A model generated the notes under the pieces. The model saw only the letters and a program-made list of their open reading frames with translations, made no database searches and was not told the origin of the DNA. DNA of 44,278 bases from a virus, in the IMG/VR virus record IMGVR_UViG_3300021424_000080, positions 1-44,278 of that record. The stretch is one strand, 5' to 3'. The translations under genes were made by a program, and so were the position numbers. The first letter of the stretch is position 1, and every line of letters begins with the position of its first letter. Positions 7,413 through 30,523 of this stretch are shown here, piece after piece.

Positions 7413-10334
7413 TTACTTGGTTGCTCTTACAATACCACCATTTCTAATTGTGGTTGTATTGGTTGTTGTAGAACTAGCTCCTGTTGCTTTAGCAGATGCT
7501 AAAGCTAGTTTTTCAGATAGAGCTTTCTGTTGCGCAGGAGTTAAATCATCTATCATGGTATCAAATATTGCAAGAGTATTCATGTTCATTGCTCTGAAAC
7601 GTGGATCAAATCTATAGTTGTAAAGGTTCTCAAATGTTTGAAGAGTTCTATTTTCCAACTGATTCTGCATATACTTAGAAGCAATAGAACTGAGAGCAGC
7701 TTGTGACGTAGCTTTTGTATTAGAAAGAGCTTCTTGTTGTCTGCTGTATTGCTGATCAAAAGCCTGTAGATTGTTAAGATTAGCCTGATTAAGAAGATTT
7801 CTGTTCTCAGCATACACTTTATCCTTTATAGCTTGATTCAATTTGAATTGTTCACCAAGCACTTTTTGATTAGCTTGATATTTCTGAGCATTCAAAGCTG
7901 CTAAAGCAGCTGGGTTGTAACCAAACAATCTTTGAGCAGCTCTGTAATCAGCCTCGTTCTCATTAATAATCTCTTGTAGAGAAATATCAAAAGGAACGTT
8001 TAATTGTGGTTGGATAGTCTGCACTTGTACAGGCTCCACTTGATTTGTTGCAAGAGCAAGCATTTCACCAGCCAATTGACGTGGGTCAAGAGGTTGTGCA
8101 TTACTAGGTCTTAGATAAGGAATAACCTGGTTAAGAAGTGTCATCCAATCAATTTTACCATCTTCAGCTTCTGTTTTTTGAACAGGAGTATTTGCATAAA
8201 TGTATTGTGGATAATTACCAGGTGTTAATTTTCTATTTCTTAATTCCTGTATTGTTGGAGGCAGCTTAGATGCACTTACAGCAACTTCATCAAGATTCAT
8301 ACTTGGATCAACTTCTTCTATAAACAAAGGTTCCAATGCTAATGCATCTCTGTATATCTTATCGCTAATATCTTCATACGTACCTCCAAGTTGTGCCTTT
8401 GCAATAGAGGCTCCTTTCTTAGCTTGTTTCACTTTACCCTTTGCTAAATCATCAGCTACAAGATTGTATTCCTCAGCTGTGTCATTAATAGCAGCCTGTA
8501 GAGAAGCAAGGTCTTGTTTCTTCTTAGCAATGTCTTTGAGCTTCATATTAGCTCCAAGAATATTTGCTTTGTATGATTCAAAAGAAAGTAAATCTTGAGG
8601 TGTAATCACTTCTAAGTTGTCAAGTTTCTCAGTGGACTTTTCTACAATTTTATTCTGCTTCTGTTCAGTCTTGGAAAGTTCAGCAACATAGTTCTTAAAC
8701 TTCTTCCCCTTTGCTTTGTCATCACCAATTAGAGATGCACCAAAGCTTGGTATTTGTAGGTTGCCATATACAGTTAAGCTGCTATCACCATCTGTACCAT
8801 TACGAAGTTGTACAGCTGGTTCTCCTCTTTCCACTTCTACAGGACTATCACCATAAGTGATTCCAATTCCTGTGTTACCTCTTCCATCAGATTCGTCATG
8901 TGACTTTCCTCTGAACATAACAGTTTCTCCACCATTAGGTAGATATGGATTGTAAGACATAGGTTCAGCATATCCACCCCAATGGGTTTCAAGATCACCA
9001 CCCATAGCAAACTTATCTCTTCCTGTGTACATAGCACGTTCACTAGGAGGAGTATAACTTTTCAAATGTCCACCTGCACGCAATGTATCCATAGTTGGAT
9101 CAGGAGCAAATAGTCTTGTCAATGGTATACCTTCAAGTGATGTTGCCACTTGTGGATTTATCATACCACCATCTCTTACATAAGAATAGTTTTGTTGTTG
9201 CAATCCTTGGACACCCTGATTGAAAGCCATTGATGTAATATTTCTATCAATTACACCTCTTGCTTGCTCTGTCTTCTCAGCTTTTCTATCAACAAGATCA
9301 CCAATCTTTTCACCAGCAAACTTACCAATCATTCCTCCTACTGGACCACCAATAATTGTACCTGCTACACTTCCAATACCACCACCCACTCTACTAGCAC
9401 CACTAGGACCATATCCTTTTGGATTCCCAATACGAGAAGTTAGTTGAGAAAGAGCATCTCCTCCTCCTTGTTCTTGGAACTTAGAAATAAAAGTTTTCTC
9501 ACCTGTTGTTTTATTTTTTTGTAAGAAGTTTGGATCTCCCAAATTGGAAAAAAATCCTCCTCCATTAGAAGCAGTTGAAATACCATTCTTAGCTTCTTCT
9601 AAATCTGTATAGATAGTGTTAGGAGCAAACGTGTTTGCTATCTCTGTGCCATTTCTGCTAATTACAGTTCCTACACCATAAATTGGAAAGAACTCTGATC
9701 CAGTGTTTATATTATCTTCTGGTCGAACATATTTTTTTTGAACTTGCTCTGGACGTGTCATAGAAGCTTGAAGAGCAACATCACTAACACCAGCCATTTG
9801 CTGAGCTTCTTTCATGATGTTTTTCTCATCACGCATTTGTTGGATTCCTCCAACTATGTTACCAATGTTCTGAGCAACAGCAGCTGGTCCACCAGCCTTA
9901 CCAATACCTTTATTAATTCCGCCAACAATCTCCTTACCTGTTATAGCTTTTTTTAACTTCTTACCATTCTTGGCACCATCTTCTTTAGAAGCACTGCCTA
10001 AAGCATTTCCTAACTGAGTGAGTGAATCAACAAGTCCTGATTTTTTATTTGCCATCTTCTGCTGTACTTCAAGATTTGCTAAATCCATTGCTTCTTGTTT
10101 ACGCATATCTTGTGTCGATCCAGTGATGAACATATCATTCTGGTCATACAACTGCTGAAAGTTAATTGGTTGAGGATTAAACTGAGGAGCTATACTCCCT
10201 TGAATCATAGCTCCTATTTGAGCTTTCTTCAAAGCTTTCCCATGAACCTTCATAAAAGATTCTTCTGTAGGGAATTTCTTGTAGAATTCCTTCTCAGACT
10301 TAACACCTGCTATCTTTAAAATTTGAGCCTTCAT
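7413..10334 (-). CDS. Cargo/ejection protein, 973 aa, with leader motif and glycine zipper
   Basis: The ATG at 10334 follows the stop of the 1319-residue gene by one base (TGATATG), so the two are probably translationally coupled. Residues 17-33 (FYKKFPTEESFMKVHGK) form a compact basic helical leader that I recall from other Bacteroidota phage virion proteins. Residues about 306-345 contain a glycine zipper (GGGIGSVAG, GGPVGGMIG) that could insert into a membrane. Around residues 465-520 is a Gly-rich module with FRGKSHDESDGRGN and VEVERGEP. The C-terminal half is Gln/Ala/Asn-rich and coiled-coil-like. Small glycine motifs (AQIGAM, AKAQLGGTY, RNGGIVRATK at the very end) are scattered through it. 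The likely role is an internal protein that helps DNA or cargo cross the host envelope. No enzyme signature is visible. Confidence 0.75.
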   Translation of the reverse strand: MKAQILKIAGVKSEKEFYKKFPTEESFMKVHGKALKKAQIGAMIQGSIAPQFNPQPINFQQLYDQNDMFITGSTQDMRKQEAMDLANLEVQQKMANKKSGLVDSLTQLGNALGSASKEDGAKNGKKLKKAITGKEIVGGINKGIGKAGGPAAVAQNIGNIVGGIQQMRDEKNIMKEAQQMAGVSDVALQASMTRPEQVQKKYVRPEDNINTGSEFFPIYGVGTVISRNGTEIANTFAPNTIYTDLEEAKNGISTASNGGGFFSNLGDPNFLQKNKTTGEKTFISKFQEQGGGDALSQLTSRIGNPKGYGPSGASRVGGGIGSVAGTIIGGPVGGMIGKFAGEKIGDLVDRKAEKTEQARGVIDRNITSMAFNQGVQGLQQQNYSYVRDGGMINPQVATSLEGIPLTRLFAPDPTMDTLRAGGHLKSYTPPSERAMYTGRDKFAMGGDLETHWGGYAEPMSYNPYLPNGGETVMFRGKSHDESDGRGNTGIGITYGDSPVEVERGEPAVQLRNGTDGDSSLTVYGNLQIPSFGASLIGDDKAKGKKFKNYVAELSKTEQKQNKIVEKSTEKLDNLEVITPQDLLSFESYKANILGANMKLKDIAKKKQDLASLQAAINDTAEEYNLVADDLAKGKVKQAKKGASIAKAQLGGTYEDISDKIYRDALALEPLFIEEVDPSMNLDEVAVSASKLPPTIQELRNRKLTPGNYPQYIYANTPVQKTEAEDGKIDWMTLLNQVIPYLRPSNAQPLDPRQLAGEMLALATNQVEPVQVQTIQPQLNVPFDISLQEIINENEADYRAAQRLFGYNPAALAALNAQKYQANQKVLGEQFKLNQAIKDKVYAENRNLLNQANLNNLQAFDQQYSRQQEALSNTKATSQAALSSIASKYMQNQLENRTLQTFENLYNYRFDPRFRAMNMNTLAIFDTMIDDLTPAQQKALSEKLALASAKATGASSTTTNTTTIRNGGIVRATK

Positions 10335-10335
10335 A

Positions 10336-13300
10336 TCAGTTGTATTTATCCAGCCAGTTATCCTTGTCTGGGTTATTTGTAAAGTTAAGTAATTGATTTA
10401 GTTTTTTCATGGGGTAGGCATCTAAATCATTGATTCCCAATTCAGCAACAGGAAACTCTGTAACCTTCTTACCCTTGAACTTGTAATTCTTTCCTGGTTG
10501 CATAAGCTTAGTGTCACCAGTGTCAGAGATGCCAAGGAGAGGTTCATACACTCCTTCCATTGTAATGTTGTTGCTTCCTATCTCAACAGGTTGTCCCCAG
10601 TTATCTTGATTCCAATATCCTTGATTATCTTTAATTATACCACCATTTTTTTGTTGGTCAACTGCCTGTGCACCAACAGCTACACCAACTGCTGGAACTG
10701 CCCAGAAATTATTCATTAAGTCAACAAAAGATTTTTTATCTTTTATATACTTTCTCATTCCATAGAAATTATTCTTCTTTGATATTTCGTCAAACATCTC
10801 TGGAGTGAATTGATCTTCAGGAGATAGATTTAGATCAAATCTTGCTTGATCCATTCTGGCTTTTATTTCAGTAGGTTTAGTATAATAAGAAATCCATTTC
10901 TTTTTAGATTTTGATTTAACTTCTTTTATAGTATTAACCCTTTGCACATTATCTTCAAATCCAAAAGGCTTTAATAACATATCTTCTTCAGGGAACGTCA
11001 GTGCTCTTCCATTACGATTTACTAAATGACTTAACTCATGAGTTCTAACTGATTCTAAACCTTTTTTATTAAATGGAAAATACATTGCCCTATTTACATA
11101 TATTTGATCAGGTATTCCATAAGATAAGCCTCCAGTATTTAGAAAATACTCTAAATATTCTTTAAGTCCCTTATCTTTTAAAAGATCTATATATGATTTG
11201 GGTTGATACTGATTTAAGCTTTCTTTAGCATTTTCTATAAAATCATTTGAAAATCTTTTTATTGATCCATCATCAAAATCTCTAAAATTAGCAGAAGAAG
11301 CTATTTTTATTTTTCTCTGTAATGTTTCTGGATGTTCATACCATCTTTTACTCCAATCTAGACCTGATTGAGTTTTTAAATTAGCTGGATTAATTCCTCG
11401 AAATAATTCTCCAAAACTTGATTGTGTTGCTTTAGCTCCTAGTTGAACTGGTTTTCTTAGTAATCCTACTCCACCTGAAATCAGTGAAGGATCAATCATA
11501 GAAAGGCCAACAGATGATTTATTTGCAATAGAAGGATAGCCTCTTAACCAATGAGGTATATTTGCTAGTCTTTGTTCAGCATCTGCTGTTCTAATAAAAT
11601 GACTAAGAGAGCCAGGTCCACGAAATCCTGCTGGCCCAACACCATATCCTACAGTGGGAGTAAAACTTTCTGCTGAATATACCAAGTCTTTTGGCAACAA
11701 AAACTCTCTTTTTGGTGCATAAGAAATATATCCTTGCAATGGATTTTGTGCAACATTAAATTTTGCTGCTTCTGTTGCAGGAAGTCTCATCTTTAATATT
11801 TCAGGAAATCCCTCGTATCCTCTTGTAGTTTGAATAGCAGGATCTGAATAGTAACCTATATCTCCTAAATCTGAACTAAATCCTCTTGCATAACCTGGTG
11901 CTTTTGCAACAGGAGAGTTAAGAATTTGATTGTATTCATATCTCTCCATGAAATCAAGATTATCAAGACCTTTGGATTCAAGTTCGTCTAATCTTCTTAA
12001 TTCAGCTGTTTGTCCTGGTTTTTGAGTTCTAGTTAAAATTACATCTGGCTCTTTTACAGCAAATGGATTTATCTTATAAGTATTTTTTAAAGGAGTTTTA
12101 GTTGTTAGCAATTTCCCAGATGTTCTTAAAGCCTGTTGAACTGGTTGTTTTAATACTGTCATTGCTCCAGTAGCCATACCAAGCGCATCTAACGTATCAA
12201 ATGTTCCTTCCAAGTTTTCTTGACTGAACATTTGTTCTCCTGTTATAGGATTTATTCCATCATTTAATCCATAAACAAGTGGTCCTGTAATTGCAGAAAG
12301 CGGATTTCCAAAACCTGGTGCCACCATTGCAAGATCCAAAATAGTTTTTCCTGTGCCTGTTAATTTTTCAAGAGGATTGTCTGAAAATCTAATAGTTCCT
12401 GGGATTCCAGTAAACTCTGCTCCAGTTTGTTGAAAATTTCTTACAGCACTAGATATATCTTTAGCAGTTTGTCCTTTTTTACCAGTGGTAGCAATAGCTC
12501 TAATTGCTCTTCCTATTGGACCTTTATCGTTGATATATCTCTTCTGTTCATTAGAAAGAGATTGATAGAATGGATATTGTTCATCGTAAGGAGTTACAAC
12601 AATCTCAGGAAGATCGATTGTCTTAATATCCTCTTCGCCATTCTGTGCAGAAGGTATATCTCCACCATATTCTTTTTGAGGAATAGCATCATATACTGTT
12701 TCTGCACCAATAAGACCTAAAAGGGCTTTATTAGCTAACAGGTTCTTGTCAGTCATTTTACCAACCTTTCGAAAAGGTTCTATGTAATTTGTTCTACTCA
12801 AGCTTCCAAAAGCTTGTGGACTTAGAGGATATAATGGCTGACCTGGTTGTAAGTATTTACTGTTTCTTCTAAATGTACTTGATGCAAGTCCTCCAGCTAA
12901 TCCAACACTACCTAAATTGATTGCAGCATCAAGATAATTTCCTTGACGAGAACTCATTGCAGCTTGCACAAGATCTACTCCACTTCCAACAATGTTTCCA
13001 GCTTTTCCAACACCTTGTGCCATTGGATTAGGAATAAAGTTTCCCACCTGCATCAAGTCTGTTGCAATATCAGCAATTGCTAATCCTTCTATAATAAGTT
13101 CTTCCAGAAGACCAGGAGCTTCTCTTAGCTGAGGTAGGCTTTGTAAATATTTTAAACGTTGATATTCAGGACTCATTTTAAGTTCAAGTCCTGCAATTTT
13201 ATCAGCAATACCAGTATCTATATTTGTTGCATCTTTTTTGTACAAGAGATATGGATCGTTTTTTTTAACATTCTTCCCTATCTGTGCAGAAGCTTTTGTC

Positions 13301-14295
13301 TTCTTTGCGTATGGACCATTACTAGGAGCAGCACCAGCTGTACGTGCGTATGTGAATCCTACAGAACCTGGAATAGACATACCACCCATTGCGATTGGAG
13401 CCCCTTCCTCATCTGCAAGAGCAATAGTGTTCATAAGATTGACAAAGTTTTTCTTACCCACTCTATCAGTGAGTCTTTTAAACACTCTGTCTTTTCCAAA
13501 ACTTTGTTTTGCTTTTTCAAAGTCTTCGTCTGTAAACTTTTTTCCTTTTGTAATATCATAGATGCCTTTGTCGTACATCATGAATCGAAGAGCACCTAAA
13601 TCAGCTTTTGCTTCATCTGGTTTTTGTAAATGGATGTAGTCTTCAAGAGCTCTTATACTAGCTTCTCTTTCTTTAGATCCTTGTACACCAGACAATACAG
13701 GTTCTGCCATAGGAAGCATTGACTTCTTAAATATCTCCTGCTCTTTATCACTCATCAAATGTCTATTTGCTCCAGCAATGTGTGCAAGCTCATGAGCTAG
13801 AATAGCTTCTTTGCTTGTGCCAACATAATCAGAAGGATTGATGTTGACATAAGAAGGACTTCCATAACCTCCAGGCTTTGCTTCAGATGGTTGTCTTGTG
13901 CTATATGTAATAGGAGTCATTTCTTCTAAAGAACCTAATATAGATTCTCTCGAAGCTGCTGCACTAGGCATATATCCACCTCGGATGATTAAATCTTCTC
14001 CTGAAGAATACCCTGTAAGGAGTTGTCTTTTTGCATATTCAGGACTTTGAATCCATGCTTTATAAAACTCTGCTGGATCTTTTGTTGTTAAATATGGAAC
14101 AGTGGGAGTTGGTTGAACACCCTGCATAGTTTGTTGCATGAGAAGATTACCACCTTTTTGAAACTGTCCTCCCCATGCAGGGGAATAGTTTCTTCCCTTT
14201 GTGTTATATCCTAAGCCAACAAAATCTTCAGAAAGGCTAACGTTTGAATCATTAGCGTTGTCTGCTTTACCAAAGTTATCTAACCATCCTTTCAT
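10336..14295 (-). CDS. Cargo protein, 1319 aa, with two HExxH zinc-metallopeptidase cores
   Basis: The N-terminal leader contains MKGWLDNFGKADNAND and GRNYSPAWGGQFQKGG (ending at residue 49). The first peptidase core has HELAH at residues 168-172 and a downstream EAKADLGALRF whose E228 is the expected third zinc ligand. The second has HELSH at 1086-1090 and TEIKARMDQAR with E1143. A helix with HExxH followed 55-60 residues later by a Glu in an ExxA-type helix is the gluzincin layout. The middle has glycine-rich, weakly hydrophobic stretches (about 651-708) and an unclassified region at 800-860 (YARGFSSDLG). The C-terminus has NGGIIKDNQGYWNQDNW and LLGISDTGDTKLM, a module I recall from related phage proteins. 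Position and size suggest a virion cargo enzyme that acts on host peptides, peptidoglycan crosslinks or virion precursors. The substrate is unknown. Confidence 0.8.
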   Translation of the reverse strand: MKGWLDNFGKADNANDSNVSLSEDFVGLGYNTKGRNYSPAWGGQFQKGGNLLMQQTMQGVQPTPTVPYLTTKDPAEFYKAWIQSPEYAKRQLLTGYSSGEDLIIRGGYMPSAAASRESILGSLEEMTPITYSTRQPSEAKPGGYGSPSYVNINPSDYVGTSKEAILAHELAHIAGANRHLMSDKEQEIFKKSMLPMAEPVLSGVQGSKEREASIRALEDYIHLQKPDEAKADLGALRFMMYDKGIYDITKGKKFTDEDFEKAKQSFGKDRVFKRLTDRVGKKNFVNLMNTIALADEEGAPIAMGGMSIPGSVGFTYARTAGAAPSNGPYAKKTKASAQIGKNVKKNDPYLLYKKDATNIDTGIADKIAGLELKMSPEYQRLKYLQSLPQLREAPGLLEELIIEGLAIADIATDLMQVGNFIPNPMAQGVGKAGNIVGSGVDLVQAAMSSRQGNYLDAAINLGSVGLAGGLASSTFRRNSKYLQPGQPLYPLSPQAFGSLSRTNYIEPFRKVGKMTDKNLLANKALLGLIGAETVYDAIPQKEYGGDIPSAQNGEEDIKTIDLPEIVVTPYDEQYPFYQSLSNEQKRYINDKGPIGRAIRAIATTGKKGQTAKDISSAVRNFQQTGAEFTGIPGTIRFSDNPLEKLTGTGKTILDLAMVAPGFGNPLSAITGPLVYGLNDGINPITGEQMFSQENLEGTFDTLDALGMATGAMTVLKQPVQQALRTSGKLLTTKTPLKNTYKINPFAVKEPDVILTRTQKPGQTAELRRLDELESKGLDNLDFMERYEYNQILNSPVAKAPGYARGFSSDLGDIGYYSDPAIQTTRGYEGFPEILKMRLPATEAAKFNVAQNPLQGYISYAPKREFLLPKDLVYSAESFTPTVGYGVGPAGFRGPGSLSHFIRTADAEQRLANIPHWLRGYPSIANKSSVGLSMIDPSLISGGVGLLRKPVQLGAKATQSSFGELFRGINPANLKTQSGLDWSKRWYEHPETLQRKIKIASSANFRDFDDGSIKRFSNDFIENAKESLNQYQPKSYIDLLKDKGLKEYLEYFLNTGGLSYGIPDQIYVNRAMYFPFNKKGLESVRTHELSHLVNRNGRALTFPEEDMLLKPFGFEDNVQRVNTIKEVKSKSKKKWISYYTKPTEIKARMDQARFDLNLSPEDQFTPEMFDEISKKNNFYGMRKYIKDKKSFVDLMNNFWAVPAVGVAVGAQAVDQQKNGGIIKDNQGYWNQDNWGQPVEIGSNNITMEGVYEPLLGISDTGDTKLMQPGKNYKFKGKKVTEFPVAELGINDLDAYPMKKLNQLLNFTNNPDKDNWLDKYN

Positions 14296-14296
14296 A

Positions 14297-15163
14297 TTAC
14301 TTGTAAGAGATTTCTGCTGGTGCTATAATGAATTGACTTACTAAATGAGCATCTGATCGATTGTCAAGAATGTGTCTTATTTTCAATTCTTTTGCTCTAA
14401 GAGGTTCTTTCTTAAATGATCTTGCTCCATAGTCCATATTGATTTGATTCACTTCTTTATCGAGAGAAAGTGATTGACATGTTCTCACAAACAGAGGAAC
14501 AGATTTATCCTTCACTACAGACCAGAATGTGTTATACTGATAGAAGTTATCACTCTTTGTGAAAGTGATTGTCTTGCTATTAGTATTCAATATAGGATAT
14601 TGTAGATAGGAATTCAAATTGTTGATTGGTTTTGGTACAAGCTCAAGTATACCAGTGGACTGTTGTCCGTTGTATAGAACAGCTTTGTTAAACCAAGCAT
14701 TGTCAAGTTCTATCCTTGATACATCATTACTCACACCATAAGGATCAGTAAAATATTTATACACCTTGGTGTAATCTTTTACATTCTGGAGTATTTCATC
14801 TTGATATTGATATGCAAAAGGATATTCAATAATATATGGTTCTATATGTCCATAGAAGGTGTTGTAGATAGTATGATCATTAAGGTGTCTCCATAAACAT
14901 GCTGTTTGGATAGTTTCTACAGGAGTGTTTTGATACTCATCTTCTGTAATAGTTGTAACAGCAAATGATTTTTGATAAGCACACTTTCCTTCAGAAGTAA
15001 TTGTAATTAAGTCAACATCATCATCTACAATATAGCTAATGCCTGTAGACACTTGTTCAAGTGTTACACCAGAAGCAATAACATTCCCATACGCATCTGT
15101 GATGGTGAAAGGCCCTGAGTTAGGGCCTGTCTTGGTTAGCTTTATTGTAATAGTCTTTGACAT
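14297..15163 (-). CDS. Tail protein, companion of the 1824-aa tail protein
   Basis: 288 residues, beginning 16 bases after the stop of the 1824-residue gene and ending one base before the ATG of the 1319-residue gene. The first 75 residues look like a small beta-sandwich (TITIKLTKTGPNSGPFTITD, then ITITSEGKC). The rest is rich in Tyr, Phe, Asn and Trp (FYGHIEPYIIEYPFAY, DNFYQYNTFWSVV) and ends in a Lys/Arg-rich segment with KIRHILDNRSDAHL. I recall near-identical segments in crAss-like tail proteins, where they lie beside or at the C-terminus of the long muzzle-type protein. This gene may therefore be a split-off part of that protein. No enzymatic motif is visible. Confidence 0.75.
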   Translation of the reverse strand: MSKTITIKLTKTGPNSGPFTITDAYGNVIASGVTLEQVSTGISYIVDDDVDLITITSEGKCAYQKSFAVTTITEDEYQNTPVETIQTACLWRHLNDHTIYNTFYGHIEPYIIEYPFAYQYQDEILQNVKDYTKVYKYFTDPYGVSNDVSRIELDNAWFNKAVLYNGQQSTGILELVPKPINNLNSYLQYPILNTNSKTITFTKSDNFYQYNTFWSVVKDKSVPLFVRTCQSLSLDKEVNQINMDYGARSFKKEPLRAKELKIRHILDNRSDAHLVSQFIIAPAEISYK

Positions 15164-15179
15164 GTGGATTTATTTAATT

Positions 15180-18100
15180 TTAAGATGGAGATATTGTAGT
15201 TGTAGTGGTTGTCGCCACACAACATTCACTAATACTTCCTGATACAGGTGTTACAACAGCGTAGTCAAATGTTGGACTTGTAATCTCACCACATGTAGGT
15301 GGAGCTTCACACTGTACATCACTTGTAGCAATCAATACATTACCAGTAGTTCCTGAAGGTATAAATGTAGTTTGTGTTGAAGCATCGCTATAATGTGTAG
15401 TTACATTTATATCAAATGGAGCTGGTATTTGAGTTCCACCACAACCATCATAAAACTTTATAAACGTATCTGTTGTACTTGCAAAGAAGCCAGGACAATC
15501 AAAACATTCACCAGGAGCACTTTGTACACTTTCTATTACATAACAATGTGGACTAACTGTAGTAGTTGTAGTGGTGGTTGGAGATGGACTTTCAGTAGTG
15601 GTAGTAGTAGTAGTTGGCTCTAATGTAGTGGTTGTTGTAGTGGTGGTTGAAGTTGTAGGTGGAGGTGGACTACAATCACACTCTGGATTAAGACAACCAA
15701 TGCCTTGAGCAAAGAACCCACAATCATCACTTATCACTTCAGTTACACATGCGGTGAAGCATAGTCCCTCATCTTGTGATGGAATGTTAAGAGTGATAGT
15801 TGCACCATTCTCATCTTTATAAACAAACGTACATCCACCAAACGGTGCAGAATCTAACTTATAACACTCAGCTGTAGGAGCAGGTGTTGTAGTAGTTGTT
15901 GTTGTAGGAGATGGTGTTGTAGTTGTGGTAGTTGTAGAACTTGTACTACTAGTAGTGGTAGTGGTAGTTGGCTCTCCTGTGGTAGTAGTGGTTGTTGTAG
16001 TTGGTTCAGCTGTGGTAGTTGTAGTGGTAGTAGAACTTGTACTAGTAGTTGTACTAGTTGTAGACGTACTAGTAGTCGTACTAGTTGACGTTGTGCTTGT
16101 TGTAGACGTACTTGTTGTAGACGTAGATGATGTAGTGGTGGTTGTTGGATTTGGAACCAATAAACCCACTAGGAAATCAAAGTCTTCACAGCAATTGTTT
16201 TGTCCTGAATAGAAGAAGTTGTTCTCAGCAACATACCAGTTTGGAATATAGCTATGGAAACTTATCCAACTCTTTGTATTCATATTGAAAGACAATGTCC
16301 ATGATACATTACAGAAGTATTGCTCATCACTTACATTGATGTATTGTCTGATGGTTAGTCCATTGACAACATTATTAATGTAGAACTCTTGCTCCACTGG
16401 ATCATATAGAATGTTATTTGACCTTGGTGCATAATCAAGCTTAGTGATAATCACTCTGTCATATACAGCATCATAAACACCATGAAGTCCTATTCCTTTG
16501 AAGTGGTTGTCAATATTCACTTCTGGAAAACTCTTATATATCATGAATGGTAGATGCTCAACAAAGAATCTATTCATCCCTGATCCAAATCCAGACAAAT
16601 CAACAGCTTCTGTTCCTTTAATATTTCTATCATTTCCCTGTATCAAGAACACTTGTCCACGCTTAGCATCCACTGTAACTTGACCTTGTGGGATCTTTAA
16701 CAACATCTTATGCTGACTTCCTACATATCCAAGATCAGTTTCTGCAAAGTCAACAGGAGGTGCTCCTCTAAACAATAGTGGATTACCTACATAAGCAGCT
16801 TGAGGATTGCTTGTATCAATAGTCAAAAGATTATTGTACATCAATGTCTTATTCTCAAATCTTGCAAGAATAGCTCTGTTCTGAATACCATCAAGAGCCA
16901 CTAGATTTCCATAGTTCTGTGGGAAATCAAAATAAGAAATAGCTCTGTAAATGAGCCAGTTGTTCACTCTGTTGTCAGCATCGATGTTTTGTGCATCAGA
17001 ATAGATGGCTCTGAATGGATAGTTTGTATAACAGAACTTCTCTTCCCAATCAGGAGGTAGATGAGTGAATGTATTCTCTCTGTTTTGCTTTGAGAATGTT
17101 GTATTGTAATAGTAGGTGTTGTCCTGTGCAATAGGCACAAAGCTCTGTTGAACCCAGTCATCTGGAATGTCTGTACTAACATGTGGCCAGAAGTCTCCTT
17201 CTCTATTATTGAATGCTTGTCTTAAATCTAGATTGTAAGAGCTTTCGCAATAGAAGTTTGGAATACCATAGGCAAACAAATAGAAGTAACCATCATAATA
17301 TGTAATAGTGGAACTTGGTGTCACTCCACCAGGACCACCTGGAGGGAACGTTGTACTAGTGGTAGTGGTGGTAGATGTAGATACAATCACATCTGTTCCA
17401 ACATCATTAGGACAATCAAAATTATGTGCCTTGTAAGAAATGATGTTTGCCATCACTCCTTGTCCAGGAATGCTGTAGTTCTCGAGAATTGATCTAGCAG
17501 AATGCCAGTATCTAGGATAGGCAACGTTACCTATCTCATCATAGAAGATGTCGCTATCATCAGGAGCATTCACCCTATTGTCAATAAAGAATGGAAGCTT
17601 AGTCTTGAATGCAAATCTGCTAATGAATGTATCACCACCAAACACTGTAGTGATTGGGTTAGGTGAATTAATTATGTATTGATAACCTGTATCAATTGTT
17701 TCATATGAATAGATTTGTCCCCACTGATTAACAATGGAGTTTTTCAATGATGCATAATATGAAACAACCTGTATCGGTTCTTCTTTAGCTGGTGTTGCAC
17801 AATTTCCTATTTCTGAAATAGTGAATCTTGATCTATCTGTAACAATACTTGTAATACCAGAAAGCATGTTAGGACTTCTGTCAGGATAAGGAAGAACTGT
17901 AGTGTCTATGTTTGTTTTCATATACACAGAGCTTTCTCTGTTCCAGTTATTGATAGGAAGATCATCTCCTACAGCCTGAACACCAGGGATCAAATATCTT
18001 GCTATGTCAAGTTCTCTTTGTTTGATTCCTTGATTATCAGGAACACCTACGCCATAGTTGTAATCAGCAATAGAGTTAAAAGAGTAAGCATAATTCTTTC

Positions 18101-20654
18101 TAGTAATGCCATTGATATAAATAGTTAAATAAGACTGATACGCAGTGAACATAGCTGTTGCACTGAAAGGGGTAGTGATACCACCCAGTTTTGCAGAACT
18201 ATCAAGAGCAGCCTTCTGAGCAGCTTCAGAAAGGAGTTTGTATTTGGCATTATCTTTCACTTCTACAAAGTGAGCTTTGCCAGTGCCAAACATTACACTT
18301 TCTAGCTTAAGAATATCTGCTAGGAATGGTTGACCAAATGATGTTTCTGGAGAGTTGAAGATTTGTCTATATCTATTCTCATCTGTAAAGCCATCTAGTA
18401 GTGTTGTACCACCACAATCTACTCCAGATCTCACTTGTCTGATTCTTCTTATTTGAGCATCAGCACAACTTGCTGTACATATCACTTCTGTACCAGCAAC
18501 CACTTCAACAATGTCAGCTGTATCACCAACGCTTAAAACAGTTGGTCCTAAGAATCTATCATCATAAGATGCTGTAAATGTTGCACCAAAAGGAGCATCC
18601 AATTCATAAACATCATAGTCAGCATATCCAACTTCTCCTCCACCAATAATAAATCTTGGCTTACCAACAGAGCAAATAACATCATCTTGTATAGATGTGT
18701 AGTCTTTGTAGACAGCTTTGTTGTTCTCGCAAGAATAATATTGAATTCTTGCTAATGGAGAACCATCAATTGGATTAGTGCCAAGACTAGTGACGTAAAC
18801 ATCAAAAGGTTTACACTCGCTTTGGTAAGCGTTGTTGGTTGTTGTTAAGAATGGATCTTCGTTAAGATCGTTATAAGGATAGTTGGGGAAGTAGAAGGAT
18901 TGTTCTTCTCTACTATATTCGCCAACGTTTCTAAGCATTCCCTTAGCAACAATAGACTTGTTAACACTTCTATCACCACGTACAATCTTAAATCCTACAA
19001 TGTCAGCTTTTTGATCATCTGTAAGATTTGATGTTTGAATAAGAGTTAAGATTTGTGTAGGATCAATCTTCACACCAATAGGAAACACAGCATCATTGCC
19101 CATCACCATAGCTTGTGGTGTTGAGAAATTTTTACTCTGATATATTGGAGAGATGTTTACATCTGGGAACTTGTGGTGCCTGATTTTTTGTCCTGCAAGG
19201 TCTCCCCACACGTCTGTATTGCATGGGTATTCTTCAACAGATTCCCAATAGGCAAATTGACCAAATTGATATGGTCCTTTGTAAGCATCATTACTTGAAT
19301 ATTCTGGAGAGAATCCTGTGACAGAAGCTGTGTTATAAATCTTCCAATATGGTGAATCATGTGTAACTGGGTCAGGGTTTCCTATAAAGTCTGGATCTGT
19401 ATCAGGAATTCTTGGGAGCAATTGCTCATACGCTGTAATTGCTCTTCCTGGAATATGGAATCCATCTGTTTGTTTTCCATTTTTTAGTAGGAAAACAATC
19501 TCAAAAGCATACACTTCATCACGAAGATATCCTCTAAGATTCGTTGCGTTTATTTCGTTTGCATAGTTTTCTGTTGGAGGAATTCTCCAAGTTTCCCACT
19601 GAAGAGTGATGTTGTTAGCAACTTGTTGATAATTGATTCTATCAATAGATGTTAACTGATCCCACACAAGAACATCCTGAACAGCTGTCAAGTCTTGAGC
19701 AATTTCATAGAATGGAAACTTCTCAAAGATGTCTTGTATTACAAGGTTGATTGTAGACTGACCTGTATAGGTGATTTGCTGATTATTGTTATCAATAAAG
19801 TATGTACCAACCAAATCAACAGATGTTACACCATTGATAGTTTTAATTACAGCTAGATTGAAATATTCAAACTGTCCAGATACATCAAGGTTATCAACAT
19901 TCACAACAATCGACTTTCCTACAGGATAGTTGAAGTTGGGAGTGGTGACAAACTCATCAGCAATAGGTGTTGGATTGGTAACTGAATAATAAGAAGTGAA
20001 TGGATTGCCAGATGGATCAGAATACTGTACAGCAAACTGATATGTACCAGCAAGTAGATTACCTCCACTGATAACATCAACTATTGTTAATTCAGGAATG
20101 TTGAAATTAGGCTGAAGCTTGAGTTGATTACAATCAAGATCATCTGTGTATACAGGACTGCATAGTGCAGTGCCAGATTTAAGAATCTTAGGAATGTCAT
20201 CAATGTCTAGATATCTTCTAGGATTGTAGCCATCTGTCCAATAGATTTCTGTATTACAATTGGTAATTCTATGGACAACTTTATGTATTGGGTAATTGAT
20301 ATTAAAGTTTAGGCAAGGAGCATTAACAAGGACACGATATTCACAATCGTTGTTGTCCATATATCCTATTTGACTATCACCTGTAGAAGGGTTAGTGATG
20401 AAGAATATATGTTTGTTTTTCTCTATAATGAAGTGTTCACCTATAAGCACAAAACCTTCAGGGAAACGAATACACAATTCGTTACCAGGTTCGTTCTGAT
20501 AGTTTACAGAATTGGAATCAAAGTTTTCAACAGCAGCGTTAAGAGCATAAGTTAGTCTACCCTTCTGAATTTGATTCAGGGACTGATCTAAGTTCAGTCC
20601 TGTAGTGGCATTATTATACTCCTGTTTAACGTTACCTTCTCCTTGCTCAGCCAT
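15180..20654 (-). CDS. Very long tail protein (crAss-like muzzle/stabilization type), 1824 aa
   Basis: The N-terminus (GLNLDQSLNQIQKGRLTYAL) and the repeating Tyr/Asn/Asp-rich beta strands over the first 1500 residues resemble the long tail-tip 'muzzle' proteins of crAss-like phages. That is a family resemblance from memory. Short Thr linkers begin around 1087-1105. Residues about 1504-1590 are almost pure Thr/Ser with single Pro, Glu or Gly residues. A cysteine-rich domain follows (CYKLDSAPFGGC, ECDCSPPPP), a second Thr tract lies at about 1664-1704, then another cysteine-containing domain, and the protein ends in TTTTTTISPS. The body probably closes or lines the tail tube, and the C-terminal knobs on linkers could be displayed for host contact. 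It follows the 324-residue connector by 5 bases and precedes its 288-residue companion. Confidence 0.8.
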   Translation of the reverse strand: MAEQGEGNVKQEYNNATTGLNLDQSLNQIQKGRLTYALNAAVENFDSNSVNYQNEPGNELCIRFPEGFVLIGEHFIIEKNKHIFFITNPSTGDSQIGYMDNNDCEYRVLVNAPCLNFNINYPIHKVVHRITNCNTEIYWTDGYNPRRYLDIDDIPKILKSGTALCSPVYTDDLDCNQLKLQPNFNIPELTIVDVISGGNLLAGTYQFAVQYSDPSGNPFTSYYSVTNPTPIADEFVTTPNFNYPVGKSIVVNVDNLDVSGQFEYFNLAVIKTINGVTSVDLVGTYFIDNNNQQITYTGQSTINLVIQDIFEKFPFYEIAQDLTAVQDVLVWDQLTSIDRINYQQVANNITLQWETWRIPPTENYANEINATNLRGYLRDEVYAFEIVFLLKNGKQTDGFHIPGRAITAYEQLLPRIPDTDPDFIGNPDPVTHDSPYWKIYNTASVTGFSPEYSSNDAYKGPYQFGQFAYWESVEEYPCNTDVWGDLAGQKIRHHKFPDVNISPIYQSKNFSTPQAMVMGNDAVFPIGVKIDPTQILTLIQTSNLTDDQKADIVGFKIVRGDRSVNKSIVAKGMLRNVGEYSREEQSFYFPNYPYNDLNEDPFLTTTNNAYQSECKPFDVYVTSLGTNPIDGSPLARIQYYSCENNKAVYKDYTSIQDDVICSVGKPRFIIGGGEVGYADYDVYELDAPFGATFTASYDDRFLGPTVLSVGDTADIVEVVAGTEVICTASCADAQIRRIRQVRSGVDCGGTTLLDGFTDENRYRQIFNSPETSFGQPFLADILKLESVMFGTGKAHFVEVKDNAKYKLLSEAAQKAALDSSAKLGGITTPFSATAMFTAYQSYLTIYINGITRKNYAYSFNSIADYNYGVGVPDNQGIKQRELDIARYLIPGVQAVGDDLPINNWNRESSVYMKTNIDTTVLPYPDRSPNMLSGITSIVTDRSRFTISEIGNCATPAKEEPIQVVSYYASLKNSIVNQWGQIYSYETIDTGYQYIINSPNPITTVFGGDTFISRFAFKTKLPFFIDNRVNAPDDSDIFYDEIGNVAYPRYWHSARSILENYSIPGQGVMANIISYKAHNFDCPNDVGTDVIVSTSTTTTTSTTFPPGGPGGVTPSSTITYYDGYFYLFAYGIPNFYCESSYNLDLRQAFNNREGDFWPHVSTDIPDDWVQQSFVPIAQDNTYYYNTTFSKQNRENTFTHLPPDWEEKFCYTNYPFRAIYSDAQNIDADNRVNNWLIYRAISYFDFPQNYGNLVALDGIQNRAILARFENKTLMYNNLLTIDTSNPQAAYVGNPLLFRGAPPVDFAETDLGYVGSQHKMLLKIPQGQVTVDAKRGQVFLIQGNDRNIKGTEAVDLSGFGSGMNRFFVEHLPFMIYKSFPEVNIDNHFKGIGLHGVYDAVYDRVIITKLDYAPRSNNILYDPVEQEFYINNVVNGLTIRQYINVSDEQYFCNVSWTLSFNMNTKSWISFHSYIPNWYVAENNFFYSGQNNCCEDFDFLVGLLVPNPTTTTTSSTSTTSTSTTSTTSTSTTTSTSTTSTTTSTSSTTTTTTTAEPTTTTTTTTGEPTTTTTTSSTSSTTTTTTTPSPTTTTTTTPAPTAECYKLDSAPFGGCTFVYKDENGATITLNIPSQDEGLCFTACVTEVISDDCGFFAQGIGCLNPECDCSPPPPTTSTTTTTTTTLEPTTTTTTTESPSPTTTTTTTVSPHCYVIESVQSAPGECFDCPGFFASTTDTFIKFYDGCGGTQIPAPFDINVTTHYSDASTQTTFIPSGTTGNVLIATSDVQCEAPPTCGEITSPTFDYAVVTPVSGSISECCVATTTTTTISPS
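15885..16145 (-). repeat. Thr/Ser-codon tract inside the 1824-aa tail gene
   Basis: About 260 bases made of ACT, ACA, ACC, AGT and TCT codons (minus strand). The codons are mixed, so the DNA is only an imperfect repeat, with short units such as TGTACTAGT recurring on the plus strand. It encodes an extended Thr/Ser linker. A second, shorter tract lies at about 15545-15665. Confidence 0.85.
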
Positions 20655-22981: not shown

Positions 22982-23335
22982 TTATTCTGCAACCACAGAA
23001 GTGGTTGTTGTACTAGTTGTTGGCACCCCTGTTGTTGTGCTAGTTGTAGTTGGGACAGGAGGTACATAGTCACCTGTAATCGTAAGATTGAGTTGTTGAG
23101 CAACCCAGTCCCACGCGTAGGAGTCAACCTCCCACTGAGTGTATGCTTCGCCTGTCATGCTCAAGTTTCCTTGTGCTAACTGAGGACCAACTGCTAAGTC
23201 TACAGTTTCAGCAAACAGCTGATAGTAGAATACTGCACTTGTTCCTAGTGTTACATTAATAGCGTAAGCATTTAATATCTTCGCTTCTTGTACTGTTCCA
23301 TTGTCCCAAATGGATACTGGTTCAATTGTTTTCAT
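22982..23335 (-). CDS. Small fibre-associated protein with Thr-rich tail, 117 aa
   Basis: ATG at 23335 overlaps the stop of the 1836-residue fibre gene (ATGA). The first 90 residues (MKTIEPVSIWDNGTVQEAKI, FYYQLF, GNLSMTGEAYTQWEVD, WDWVAQQLNLTI) look like a compact beta-rich domain that I recall downstream of fibre genes in related phages. The C-terminus is a Thr/Ser linker (TTTSTTTGVPTTSTTTT) that ends without a following domain. Coupled translation right after the fibre suggests a fibre partner, an assembly factor or a cap. No enzymatic motif is seen. Confidence 0.7.
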   Translation of the reverse strand: MKTIEPVSIWDNGTVQEAKILNAYAINVTLGTSAVFYYQLFAETVDLAVGPQLAQGNLSMTGEAYTQWEVDSYAWDWVAQQLNLTITGDYVPPVPTTTSTTTGVPTTSTTTTSVVAE

Positions 23336-26300
23336 CGTATTTTTTCGTTTAGTTCTTGTATTGCTTTAATAAGTATTGGTACTAGTTTAGAGTAATCAAC
23401 TCCCTGCATATCTTCAGCGTCCTTACTACCTGTTACAGCGTAGTTTATTACTTCCTGTAACTCGTGTGCAAGAACACCATAAGACCTTGTCTTGTCAGAC
23501 TTCCATTCAAAGTCATAAGGCTTGATTCTGCTTAGCAAATCTAGTCCATTAAAGTCTTTGATGTCCTGCTTTAGTCTATAGTCTGATGATGTATTGTAAG
23601 CAGTGTCAGTTCCATCAGTTGAGATTGACCCTACAAAGCTACCATTATAACTGAATCTTATGATTGAACCTGTCACTCCACTTAATCCTACAACCATTGC
23701 TGTAGATGTACTGCTCTTTATAAACTGTGCATTACCTGCAACATTCAATGTATAGCCTGCATCGGTAGTTGTACCCATTAATATGTTTCCACCTGAAGTA
23801 ATTCGCATTCTTATAGACCCACTAGTTTCAAATGTTTGATGATTGTAATTTGAAAATAGTAATGGTGAACTGTTCCATGTTCTAATAACTCCAGTGGTCC
23901 CATCATAACCAATCTGCAAAGATCCAACGCTTGTGGTAGTTGGATTTGATAATCCTGTACTTGTTATTCCACCAGCAACGTGTAGTTGGTCTATAGGGTC
24001 ATTAGTGCCCATTCCAATTCTACCGTTAAAAGCAATTCTCATTCTTTCAGTACCAGCCATTGGATATACATCACCTGCACTATAAGACGTTGTGCTCGTA
24101 TGGAATGTAATGCCTTCTGAATAGTACATCTTAATCATTGAGCTGTACCATCCGCTATTTACAACATTGACTTGGTTAGCAACAGAAGCACTTGCTCTTA
24201 AGTTGTGACCAAGTATGCCCATTGCACCACTGATAGTTTGGCTATAGAAGTTGTAACCCCCAACATTCAAACCTTGATTTCCTGAAAATATAGATTCATC
24301 AAAATAACCTACTCCATTTACTCGTAATCTTGACCCAATATCCGTTGTCGTTCCAATCAAGACGTTGCCAGGAGAACCTCCAGTTATTGTCATTGTAGGA
24401 GTTGACCCACTATTTGCAAAAAAATTAAAATTATTTCCATTGTATTGTATAAATCCATTGGAACTTGTAGAATTTATAAATGACAAATCTACATAAGATA
24501 TACTTGACTGAAATCTACCAATTGTTCCAGAGCCATTTACATGAAACAATGTACCAGGACTACTCGTCCCAATCCCAACGTTACCACTACTACCTACATA
24601 GACATCATATGTTATACCAGTTACATCTTTAATATCACTCGTACCAACTCTAACAATTCCAAAATCTTGTCCTGCTATACGAGAAATAACGGCTTCATGG
24701 CCTCCATATTTCATGAAACCTATTCGTTTTTCACCTTGAGCGTCTACTATTAATCCAGAGGCTTCACCATTTATATAAACATTTCCAGAGTCTACATGGA
24801 GTTTTTCTGTTGGTGATGTAGTACCTATACCAACACTACCAGCATTAAAACTCATATATCTATCAGCACTTGTACCATCACCTATTGCTCCATAAGTTCC
24901 ATTAGCACTAAGTTTTAACATTGTAGTAGTACCATTAACAAGAGAAAGAGCGGGTCTATTTGCAACTATAGATGAAATTGTAATACCATTATCTGCGCCT
25001 CTTACTTCTAATTTATCATTTATTGTTGTAGTACCTATACCAACACTACCTCCTGAGGTGATGCGGAGGCGTCCAACATCATTTGTGCCTATATCTAAAT
25101 AGTGATTTGTGCTTGTTCCAATAAATCCACCAGCAGCATTATTTATATAATTTACAATACTTGCACTTCTATTTGAATTGCTTATAAATACTCCACAAAC
25201 AGCAGAAGTATTTTGAGAACGAACATCTATCATGCCGCTTTCAGAACCAAAATTAAATGGATTATTAGTATTAATACCTACTAACCCCCCACTCGTGATG
25301 CGCATTCGTTCGGCAAGAGTCCCAGTATTACTAGTATAGAATTCTAACGAACCAGAATTATCGGCACCTCCTCTTGAGCTTTCTATCCCTGCAACATAAT
25401 TAGTCTTGTGATAAAACGCCAATGAAGCAAACGTACTATCCGCAGTTCGAGCTCCCTGTATATTTAACGCTCCACGAACATTACCAGAGACCCCAGCAGA
25501 TATGCTTAATTGTTTAAACCCTGCTTGTATGCTTGGACTAATCGTTCCAATGCCGACGTCGCCACCCGAAGTGATGCGCATTCGTTCGGTGTTGTTTGTA
25601 CCAAATGCCAATGCTCTAGCTCCACGACCATTTATACCAAAAGTATCATTTCCACCGCTACCAAATATCTGCTGAGAAGTTCCTATATCTGCAATAGTTG
25701 TATTGTTTGTACCCCAAACAATGTATCCTCCATTCGCATTGTTAGAATTAAATTCGCCAATTTGTCCTGCTGAATCTGTTACTCTTAGAAAAGGTGTAGT
25801 CACACTACTGCTGAAGGTAGCTGTCCCTGTGGAGGCGATGGTTAGTCTTGGATTAGCCCCTCCCGTTGCAAAAATTAAATTAGCAGTTGACCTTATTGCA
25901 AAATTAGTAACCCCACCATTGGTAACACCTTCCGCATTACCAATCATTCCAATGTTAGTACCTGAATTTTGTATTAAAATTACAGGCCCATCTGTGTTTG
26001 TACTATTAATAGTAAAAGAATTTTGCGCTGTACTACTAAAGGTCGCTGCGCCTGTAGCTCTAGTGAGAGTTAAAGCATTGTTAGAAGTTCCATAACTATA
26101 AAATACTAAATTACCAGTAGAGCCACCATTGGCTATTTGCCAATCAAGTGTATTATCTTTTGTTAGTAATATACCACCATCTTGTGTAGAATTTTTATTA
26201 AGCCATAAATAATATGCTGTTGAAGAATTTGCCCAGTTAAATCTAAAGTTACCACCTTCAACTTGTAATCTTGAACCTGCATCTGAGGTTGTTCCAATCA

Positions 26301-28866: not shown

Positions 28867-29391
28867 TTAGCAAGAAGTTGCTGCACTCAATACACCACCA
28901 CTTGATACTGTCCACTTAGTACTCAAATTGGTTATGTAAATATAACCACTATAAGTAGTTGTTAGACCAGTGTTAGTATATAAAACTACACCATTTGCTA
29001 GTGTAGGAACAGAGGTGTACAATGGAGACAACAATACAGCTGATGTACAAGGGCTAGAAATATTCACCAGTCCTCCTAAATACCAAGTGTAATATCCAGG
29101 TCCTGTAGTGGTCGTACTTGTAGTGCTGGTTGTACTAGTTGTTGGACCAGCTGATGTACTGGTTGTAGTGGTTGTAGGTGGCGTTGGAGAAATTTGTTGC
29201 TCTATTAAAGAAATAGCATAGTCAATTTTTTCTAACACAGTGGTGAGGTCATCGCAACTTTGGATGCCTGTTCCTGCTAGGTTTGGACCTATATATTTTA
29301 TGTTTTCAGAAGAAACAAATTTACATTGTTCACCACTGCAACCACAAGGACCTAAAGATCCACATCCTGGGCAATTAGCATTAAATGGCAT
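28867..29391 (-). CDS. Appendage protein: Cys-rich anchor, Thr linker, C-terminal domain, 174 aa
   Basis: An upstream in-frame start (29427) exists, but it lies inside the preceding gene. The ATG at 29391, 4 bases after that gene's stop, is preferred and gives MPFNANCPGCGSLG. The N-terminal anchor has CPGCGSLGPCGC, then EQCKFVSSENIKYIGPNL and a helix. This is the same layout as the two neighbouring appendage proteins. A Thr/Ser linker follows (TTTTTSTSAGPTTSTTSTTS). The C-terminal domain of about 70 residues has WYLGGLVNISSPC, LYTNTGLTTTYSGYIY and a terminal Cys, a module type I recall at fibre tips in Bacteroidota phages. It is probably a short fibre or decoration attached through the shared anchor. 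Confidence 0.75.
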   Translation of the reverse strand: MPFNANCPGCGSLGPCGCSGEQCKFVSSENIKYIGPNLAGTGIQSCDDLTTVLEKIDYAISLIEQQISPTPPTTTTTSTSAGPTTSTTSTTSTTTTGPGYYTWYLGGLVNISSPCTSAVLLSPLYTSVPTLANGVVLYTNTGLTTTYSGYIYITNLSTKWTVSSGGVLSAATSC

Positions 29392-29395
29392 AGTT

Positions 29396-30523
29396 TTATG
29401 GGATATACATGATATAATAAGCACCAATTGTAGGCTGGATATTGCTATGGCTCAATCCTCCACCTGTTGCATCAATAACTACACTAGTTGTGACACTCAC
29501 TGTAGCATTGCTAGTTGGTCCAAGATCGGCACTTCCAGATGTACTCTTAAGTCTGTATGAGAAGTTGTTACTTCCATCAAACTCAGTATCTAGAGGGCTA
29601 GTGCTAGTGAGGTCACCAATATTAATACCATCTTTAGCAATAAAGTGTGAGTGTGGAGCAGCTGTTGATGTAGCTGTTGCTGTGTGAGTGTGAGCAGGAA
29701 TTTGATTAGCTGTCAGAGTGACGTTATTCAATCCCTGCACACTATTCAATGAATAGCTTGGGTTACCTGGTGTTGAAGGATTGACAACAGAACTCATTGG
29801 TATTGTACCAACCATGCTTCCATCTGTAGTTCCTACAGCAACACGTCCTCTCTTGTCTGGTGTACCATTGCTTCCATTACACAAATACACATTTGCAAAC
29901 AAACCAGATCCTGCTCCTGTAACATCAAAACCTGCAATAGAGCCATAGTATTCATACGCAACGTATGGTACCATTTTATTCTTGTAAAGGTTGGATGGAG
30001 CAATGCTATTCAAATAAGCTTGAATAAGCGTATTCAAATCAGCAAGCTGAACATAATTGGTTGTTACATCAAGTTCTAGTGCTGCCAAGTCAGCTGCTGT
30101 AGAGCAAAGCTTATTGATAGCTGCTTGAAGGATGTCATGTGTATCAGACGATGCTGTTACACCTGTAAGACATCCAATTGTGTAATTAGCGTTAAGGGTG
30201 GTGAGGGTTGATTCAATTGCTGTAACACTGGTTTTTAAAGAGCAAATTGATTTGATCAGTGCTGAGATTACATTATTTAGTGTTATGTCGCCAGACACTG
30301 GAAGAAAACCACTCACCAATGCGCACAGGTCAGCTGGTTTAATGACAGGAATAATGCCATTACCAGTAGACAAATCTATGATGAATGTTGTAATTTTTAA
30401 TTCAACATCAGCAAGACTGTCACCATTGGAAATATCAAGAGCAGGAATATTATATCCTGTATATTTTACACACTGATCAGATATAATTTCAGTGCATCCA
30501 TTGAAGCAATTAGAGCAGGCCAT
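29396..30523 (-). CDS. Tail-collar domain fibre protein, 375 aa
   Basis: The N-terminal module (MACSNCFNGCTEIISDQCVK, then YTGYNIPALDI) matches the anchors of the next two appendage genes. A helical stem follows (residues about 60-180). The C-terminal half is a phage tail collar domain: AYEYYGSIAGF near 185, TPDKRGRVAVG at about 221-231, ANQIPAHTHT at about 271-281, a second His pair (PHSHF), and the closing SNIQPTIGAYYIMYI. In this family the His residues can bind metal in the fibre tip. The gene starts one base after the 88-residue gene and ends 4 bases before the next. It is probably a short tail fibre. Confidence 0.85.
   Translation of the reverse strand: MACSNCFNGCTEIISDQCVKYTGYNIPALDISNGDSLADVELKITTFIIDLSTGNGIIPVIKPADLCALVSGFLPVSGDITLNNVISALIKSICSLKTSVTAIESTLTTLNANYTIGCLTGVTASSDTHDILQAAINKLCSTAADLAALELDVTTNYVQLADLNTLIQAYLNSIAPSNLYKNKMVPYVAYEYYGSIAGFDVTGAGSGLFANVYLCNGSNGTPDKRGRVAVGTTDGSMVGTIPMSSVVNPSTPGNPSYSLNSVQGLNNVTLTANQIPAHTHTATATSTAAPHSHFIAKDGINIGDLTSTSPLDTEFDGSNNFSYRLKSTSGSADLGPTSNATVSVTTSVVIDATGGGLSHSNIQPTIGAYYIMYIP

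Follow-up and report, generated by a model that had tools for sequence, protein, structure and literature searches.

crAss-like phages belong to the most abundant phages described so far; to our knowledge, little is established about the role of their cargo proteins on entry. In polymorphic toxins, the part that serves delivery is constant and the effector domains are exchangeable. Polyvalent proteins, such as DdrB of phage P1 and the N4 vRNAP, are large, multi-domain proteins that are encoded next to virion genes and have a zincin-like MPTase; according to that account, these MPTases fall into 12 clades and are present in more than one copy in about 8% of the proteins (Iyer et al. 2017, PMC5512222). 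In phage crAss001, the muzzle gene is followed by the cargo genes C1 (gp45) and C2 (gp46) and then by RNAP genes (PMC10172136).

We analyzed a window of 44 kb (44,278 nucleotides) that constitutes IMG/VR virus record IMGVR_UViG_3300021424_000080. Pfam and PHROGs markers identify it as a Crassvirales genome fragment, with a muzzle protein and a crassvirus major capsid protein both recognized by Pfam. One of its genes encodes what we call a rack protein, in which constant modules are separated by slots. The combination of a constant part with exchangeable domains is shared with polymorphic toxins. Unlike in these toxins, the variable domains of the rack are internal, between constant parts, and the gene downstream is not a dedicated immunity gene but a cargo-type gene (the 973-aa gene, found there in 64 loci among the matches listed).

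Like polyvalent proteins, the rack protein has virion-gene neighbors and an HExxH motif with a downstream Glu predicted on a following helix, but constant modules in fixed order with empty or filled slots are not described in the available portions of that source (PMC5512222). Also unlike the MPTases of polyvalent proteins, the cores of the window match no Pfam MPTase model, MPTase-PolyVal included. The rack protein resembles podovirus ejection proteins (T7 gp14-16, P22 gp7/16/20), between which a lytic domain is swapped in mosaic fashion, whereas neither repeated constant modules with slots nor a metalloprotease is described in the accessible part of the account of those proteins (PMC8954989). 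The gene neighborhood is similar to that of crAss001 (PMC10172136). However, no gene separates muzzle gp44 from gp45 in crAss001, where the window has a 288-aa gene, and gp45 and gp46 are without HExxH, unlike the rack protein. A single HEAFH occurs at residue 2157 of crAss001 gp47, a putative RNA-polymerase subunit of 2341 aa (L177:10120-17145). Within the accessible portions of the openly licensed literature, a non-exhaustive search yielded no description of such a rack.

The rack protein and its genomic setting

The features of the rack gene and of its surroundings are listed in Table 1. In 83 of the 90 loci among the matches listed, the muzzle gene and the 288-aa gene stand before the rack gene. 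The similarity of the 973-aa neighbor to crAss001 gp45 is weak (probability 29% in hhalign, with E = 6e-4 over 56 columns). Models of defense systems gave no match.

Table 1. Coordinates of the rack gene, its predicted parts and neighboring genes in the window
Feature	Coordinates	Strand	Residues	Evidence or remark
Putative virion cargo protein of modular build ("rack"), ATG start, 1319 aa	10336..14295	minus		ORF; IMG/VR relatives
Constant module A (header), ...GRNYSPAWGGQF	14143..14295	minus	1-51	Common to all rack proteins
N-type zincin domain, slot A-B	13405..14079	minus	73-297	Alignment A4, AF2, viral fold matches
HELAH, predicted zinc ligands and general base	13780..13794	minus	168-172	H, E, H invariant in 15/15 (members picked by motif)
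Glu228 (PDEAKAD), predicted third zinc ligand	13612..13614	minus	228	Invariant in 15/15 (members picked by motif); start of modelled helix 154-170 of domain
Constant module B, IPGSVGFTYAR...AKKTKASAQIG	13276..13392	minus	302-340	HMM E 4.9e-22
Merged slot B-D	10651..13275	minus	341-1215	Slot table; L002 comparison
Further domain	12631..13275	minus	341-555	phmmer: also in L002, L005
VVTPYDEQYPFYQSL module	11956..12630	minus	556-780	Also inside neighboring cargo gene of L006, L007 (there as about 538-723)
Further domain	11371..11955	minus	781-975	
C-type zincin domain, end of slot B-D	10696..11367	minus	977-1200	Alignments A5, A6; N-type homology; AF2; fold matches
HELSH	11026..11040	minus	1086-1090	H, E, H invariant in 7/7 (members picked by motif)
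Glu1143 (PTEIKAR), predicted third zinc ligand	10867..10869	minus	1143	Invariant in 7/7 (members picked by motif)
Constant module D, ITMEGVYEPLLGISDTGD...	10435..10650	minus	1216-1287	HMM E 1.4e-35
Constant tail T, ...LNFTNNPDKDNWLDKYN	10339..10434	minus	1288-1319	Tail seen in relatives
973-aa cargo-type gene, downstream of rack	7413..10334	minus		Downstream neighbor in 64 loci (among the matches listed)
288-aa gene, between muzzle and rack	14297..15163	minus		Direct upstream neighbor in 83 loci (among the matches listed)
Crassvirus muzzle protein	15180..20654	minus		Pfam crAss_MUZ E 5.9e-33; 5' of rack gene
Crassvirus major capsid protein	34663-36216			Crass_capsid E 1.4e-25
Portal	37612-40206			Pfam / PHROGs
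Large terminase	40206-42230			Pfam / PHROGs

Long Thr/Ser-rich stretches (TTTTTSTST) occur in several virion-type proteins of the window, the products of 15180-20654, 22982-23335, 28867-29427 and 31588-32775, and in the first of these, the muzzle, small Cys-containing segments interrupt them. The 1836-aa protein encoded at 23332-28842 has long GTSGTSG collagen-like repeats and a C-terminus that resembles, by eye, an S74-type chaperone domain.

Relatives of the rack protein were collected in searches with the first ~50 residues, one of which listed the best 80 of 97 loci and another the best 80 of 196. The header searches and the first search gave a set of 93 non-contained proteins, of which 73 are full length. 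Among the matches listed, a WL-x-Y-type tail ends 71 of the 73 full-length proteins, and all 70 proteins scored with module profiles have the module order A-B-C-D or A-B-D. Slot lengths are sharply bimodal among the same matches: many slots are empty (0 residues for A-B, 2 for B-C and 2-12 for C-D), and others hold up to 1028 residues. The shortest relatives, L032 and L067 (226-229 aa), are nearly bare racks, and multi-domain rack proteins of 1000-1739 aa without any HExxH also exist. HExxH motifs are distributed over slots A-B (8), B-C (9), C-D (5), D-T (3) and B-D (2), with one before A, and Pfam supports SLT transglycosylase (3), ART-PolyVal (1) and GNAT (1) as further occupants, again among the matches listed. 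Judged by these alignments, the rack is built of short constant modules, with intervening slots that are either empty or filled by various predicted enzymes or by unassigned domains. No occurrence of the header module was confirmed in bacterial genome contigs.

The window protein is without module C, which relatives have at the position of its slot B-D (slot table; L002 comparison). Its two zincins occupy separate slots, A-B and B-D, and are its only assigned domains; SLT, ART-PolyVal and GNAT domains occur in other members. A domain search with the VVTPYDEQYPFYQSL module returned just a sub-threshold PT-TG match. For residues 781-975, neither Pfam nor a sequence search of the PDB gave a supported match, and an ADP-ribosyltransferase suspected there by eye was rejected on that ground.

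Two predicted zincin domains and their counterparts in cultured phages

The first-pass annotation had proposed two gluzincin-like cores in the protein, HELAH at residues 168-172 and HELSH at 1086-1090, with a His-to-Glu spacing of about 55 residues. Both motifs are present in the translation of the minus-strand ORF, and the distances from the second His to Glu228 and Glu1143 are 56 and 53 residues. Across the 73 full-length relatives, the HExxH motif occurs 30 times among the matches listed, versus 0.55 times expected from shuffled sequences, which excludes chance at the level of the family. None of the 15 sequences in the N-type alignment (A4) deviates at H, E, H or the downstream Glu, a conservation inflated because the alignment members were picked by motif. 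These 15 sequences also have an SP-x-Y motif close to the domain N-terminus and an invariant Asn within a C-terminal LMN-x-IA-like motif. The same four positions are invariant in 7/7 sequences of the C-type alignment, which consist of three close C-type sequences and four that are also in the N-type alignment (A6 overlaps A4). Loss of HExxH from close homologs had been named as one observation that would speak against the two cores; the motif is kept in all aligned relatives, which were picked by motif.

The N-type family is homologous to the C-type family (96.9% probability in hhalign, E = 1.3e-10), while three non-zincin segments of the rack protein, used as controls, score 0.07-0.38% in the same profile comparison. 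The first-pass assignment of two gluzincin-type cores, for which a comparison of the cores with each other had been proposed as a check, is supported. The nearest relatives of the C-type core (L033 and L122, obtained from header searches) have 26-27% identity to it and are single modules in other phages. A search of IMG/VR and phage records for C-core relatives found none, and widening the IMG/VR search for the N-core brought up no contigs beyond those found earlier. Membership in M48 was rejected because the Pfam score of the window protein, 17.8 bits, is below the gathering cut-off of 20.3, and M91, DUF2268 and eCIS_core were rejected because every score was under the Pfam cut-off. A PDB sequence search with the N-type profile gave just weak matches.

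The structure predictions that had been suggested as a check gave a confident result for one core and a weak one for the other. The AlphaFold (AF2) model of the N-core is confident (pLDDT 87.4, pTM 0.86); in domain numbering, it has HExxH on helix 90-102 and the Glu on helix 154-170. The C-core model is weak (pLDDT 66.8, pTM 0.70). Few close relatives exist for its alignment, and the intermediate sequences with which this was filled up may bias the model in favor of the N-type fold. When the N-core was compared with the PDB by Foldseek, the leading matches were mostly zinc peptidases, at a non-significant level (best E = 0.069, TM about 0.23). Among viral models, its best matches are virion (structural) proteins of phages phi4:1 (E = 1.1e-7) and phi14:2 (E = 5.3e-4), and phi4:1 (E = 3.8e-2) and phi14:2 (E = 8.6e-3) are on top for the C-core as well. 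Both domains are predicted gluzincin-type zincins, with HExxH and a downstream Glu.

The first-pass annotation had also called the protein virion cargo, and here the cultured phages are informative. phi4:1 gp041 (739 aa) and phi14:2 g070 (593 aa) directly follow the gene at the muzzle position. In phi4:1 this gene, gp042, matches the muzzle profile, whereas g071 of phi14:2 was assigned from gene order alone. MS/MS evidence underlies the annotation of gp041 and g070 as virion proteins (RefSeq "tail protein"), and each has two HExxH cores, which their annotation does not mention. The N-type family strongly matches the second core of gp041 and g070 (99.6%), and the two cores of g070 are themselves related (33% identity, E = 2.4e-4). 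The two proteins are thus like the window protein in zincin family, in number of zincins and in their position adjoining the muzzle. In contrast to the window protein, gp041 has no match to the rack-module profiles, and no rack modules were seen by eye in g070. Because both counterparts have pairs, the zincin pair recurs at this virion position and is not peculiar to the window. By analogy with these MS/MS-annotated double-zincin proteins at the same position, the presence of the window protein in the virion is supported.

Module D also occurs near the N-terminus of two proteins without the header, phi4:1 gp040 (a module-D-like stretch, L087:9065-11752) and a protein of Leptolyngbya phage Lbo-JY46 (L088:15358-16845). 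The L088 record, PP438436, was recorded from the cyanobacterium Leptolyngbya and has a crassvirus-like muzzle (31.5% identity over 79%). A segment of 798 bp has 95% DNA identity between phi14:2 (Crassvirales, L176:27080-27876) and phi4:1 (Lightbulbvirus, L087:24459-25256), which suggests a recent exchange of a virion-gene segment.

Gain and loss of slot contents

Closely related loci differ by whole slot contents. The sequences of L006 and L007 align throughout the region, except that L007 has exactly 1287 bp extra in slot A-B, which contain its N-type zincin. In L070 and L079, the flanks match at 95% and 91% identity, and the difference between the two loci is a zincin-bearing insert in slot B-C. 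L003 and L004 are 97.3% identical up to gene base 1727, after which L004 has a different insert, with HEIEH. In total, 202 locus pairs have a slot filled in one member and empty in the other between conserved flanks, a count of non-independent pairs from a set with near-identical genomes (the sample counts likewise include near-identical relatives). In most of the 202 pairs, the length difference is divisible by three and hence in frame. The same arrangements were recovered in contigs of different samples, an informal argument against assembly artifacts. The VVTPYDEQYPFYQSL module lies instead inside the 973-type cargo gene in L007 (12366-17090) and L006 (13413-18182), so modules also move between adjacent genes.

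Does the pair of zincins in the window reflect a duplication? Among the matches listed, 46 proteins have no zincin, 24 have one and 3 have two, and the numbers expected if slots were filled independently are 48.4, 19.9 and 4.7. The number of doubles does not exceed the prediction for independent filling, and no duplication inside the window gene need be invoked. The nearest relatives of the window protein (L001, L002, L003 and L005) have the N-type core and are without the C-type core. Given this distribution and the fit of the counts, we interpret the pair as related modules that were acquired in two separate events. The first-pass suggestion of an old duplication or of two different substrates is not supported, also in view of the single modules that are the nearest relatives of the C-type core.

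Possible roles of the zincins

The nearly bare racks and the large racks without HExxH indicate that the zincin is dispensable, required neither for assembly nor for a general release of domains. We propose, with a probability that we put at about one half, that the rack protein is a virion-packaged carrier of plug-in effectors, with the two zincins as accessory, host-directed effectors and not as a required capsid-maturation protease. Constant modules A, B, C and D and the tail would form the rack and would serve virion targeting and ejection, and the slots would accept whole domains by recombination. The window phage would thereby carry two distantly related gluzincin-type metallopeptidase domains, in A-B and B-D, together with further domains. 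During infection, the rack protein would exit together with the rest of the cargo, and its zincins, as accessory effectors of an arms race, would cleave host proteins in the envelope or the cytoplasm. We infer zinc binding, catalysis, ejection and host targets of the zincins; the zincins are probably host-directed in view of their dispensability and turnover. Their most likely role is an accessory one, as effectors that act at entry on proteins of the host.

It is possible, although we hold it with somewhat less than even confidence, that the rack is a dedicated platform for cassette exchange. The short modules, conserved at the DNA level, would then be both delivery or docking elements and anchors for recombination, and the cargo would be combinatorial, with two proteases in the present case.

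We consider it unlikely that the zincins act in self-processing, by which they would cut their carrier and neighboring cargo at linker motifs like [KS]AQxG and free the domains. Self-processing has been proposed for the MPTases of polyvalent proteins (PMC5512222), and AQxG is enriched 8.6-fold in rack proteins (171 vs 19.8) and 4-fold in the family of the 973-aa neighbor (245 vs 61.2). No enrichment was found in the muzzle, 288-aa, 922-aa, RNAP-position and 324-aa gene families. However, a large part of the rack signal reflects the homology of module B, with about one SAQNG in each conserved end, and since rack proteins of 1000-1739 aa exist without HExxH, a resident zincin is not the general means of release. 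The processing of other cargo proteins, one of the functions initially suggested for the cores, is weakened by these multi-domain relatives and by the nearly bare racks.

A breach of the envelope, in which the zincins would cut periplasmic or peptidoglycan-linked peptide bonds and open the ejection path alongside lysins, appears to us quite improbable. Transglycosylase (SLT) domains in slots of three relatives and an N-terminal stretch of phi4:1 gp041 that is lysozyme-like by eye are consistent with it, but the cores do not match known peptidoglycan peptidases and most relatives are without HExxH cores. That the domains have degenerated into structural remnants and catalyze nothing, as the strong divergence of the C-type sequences (26-27% identity) could suggest, is very improbable given that all four catalytic positions are invariant across highly divergent members.

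The swappable slots look like a way to exchange the proteins that the phage delivers at infection. A virion protein with such slots points directly to candidate entry effectors that can be tested, and it provides a natural experiment on effector exchange. Because the double zincin occurs in the cultured phages phi14:2 and phi4:1, its function is testable in the laboratory.
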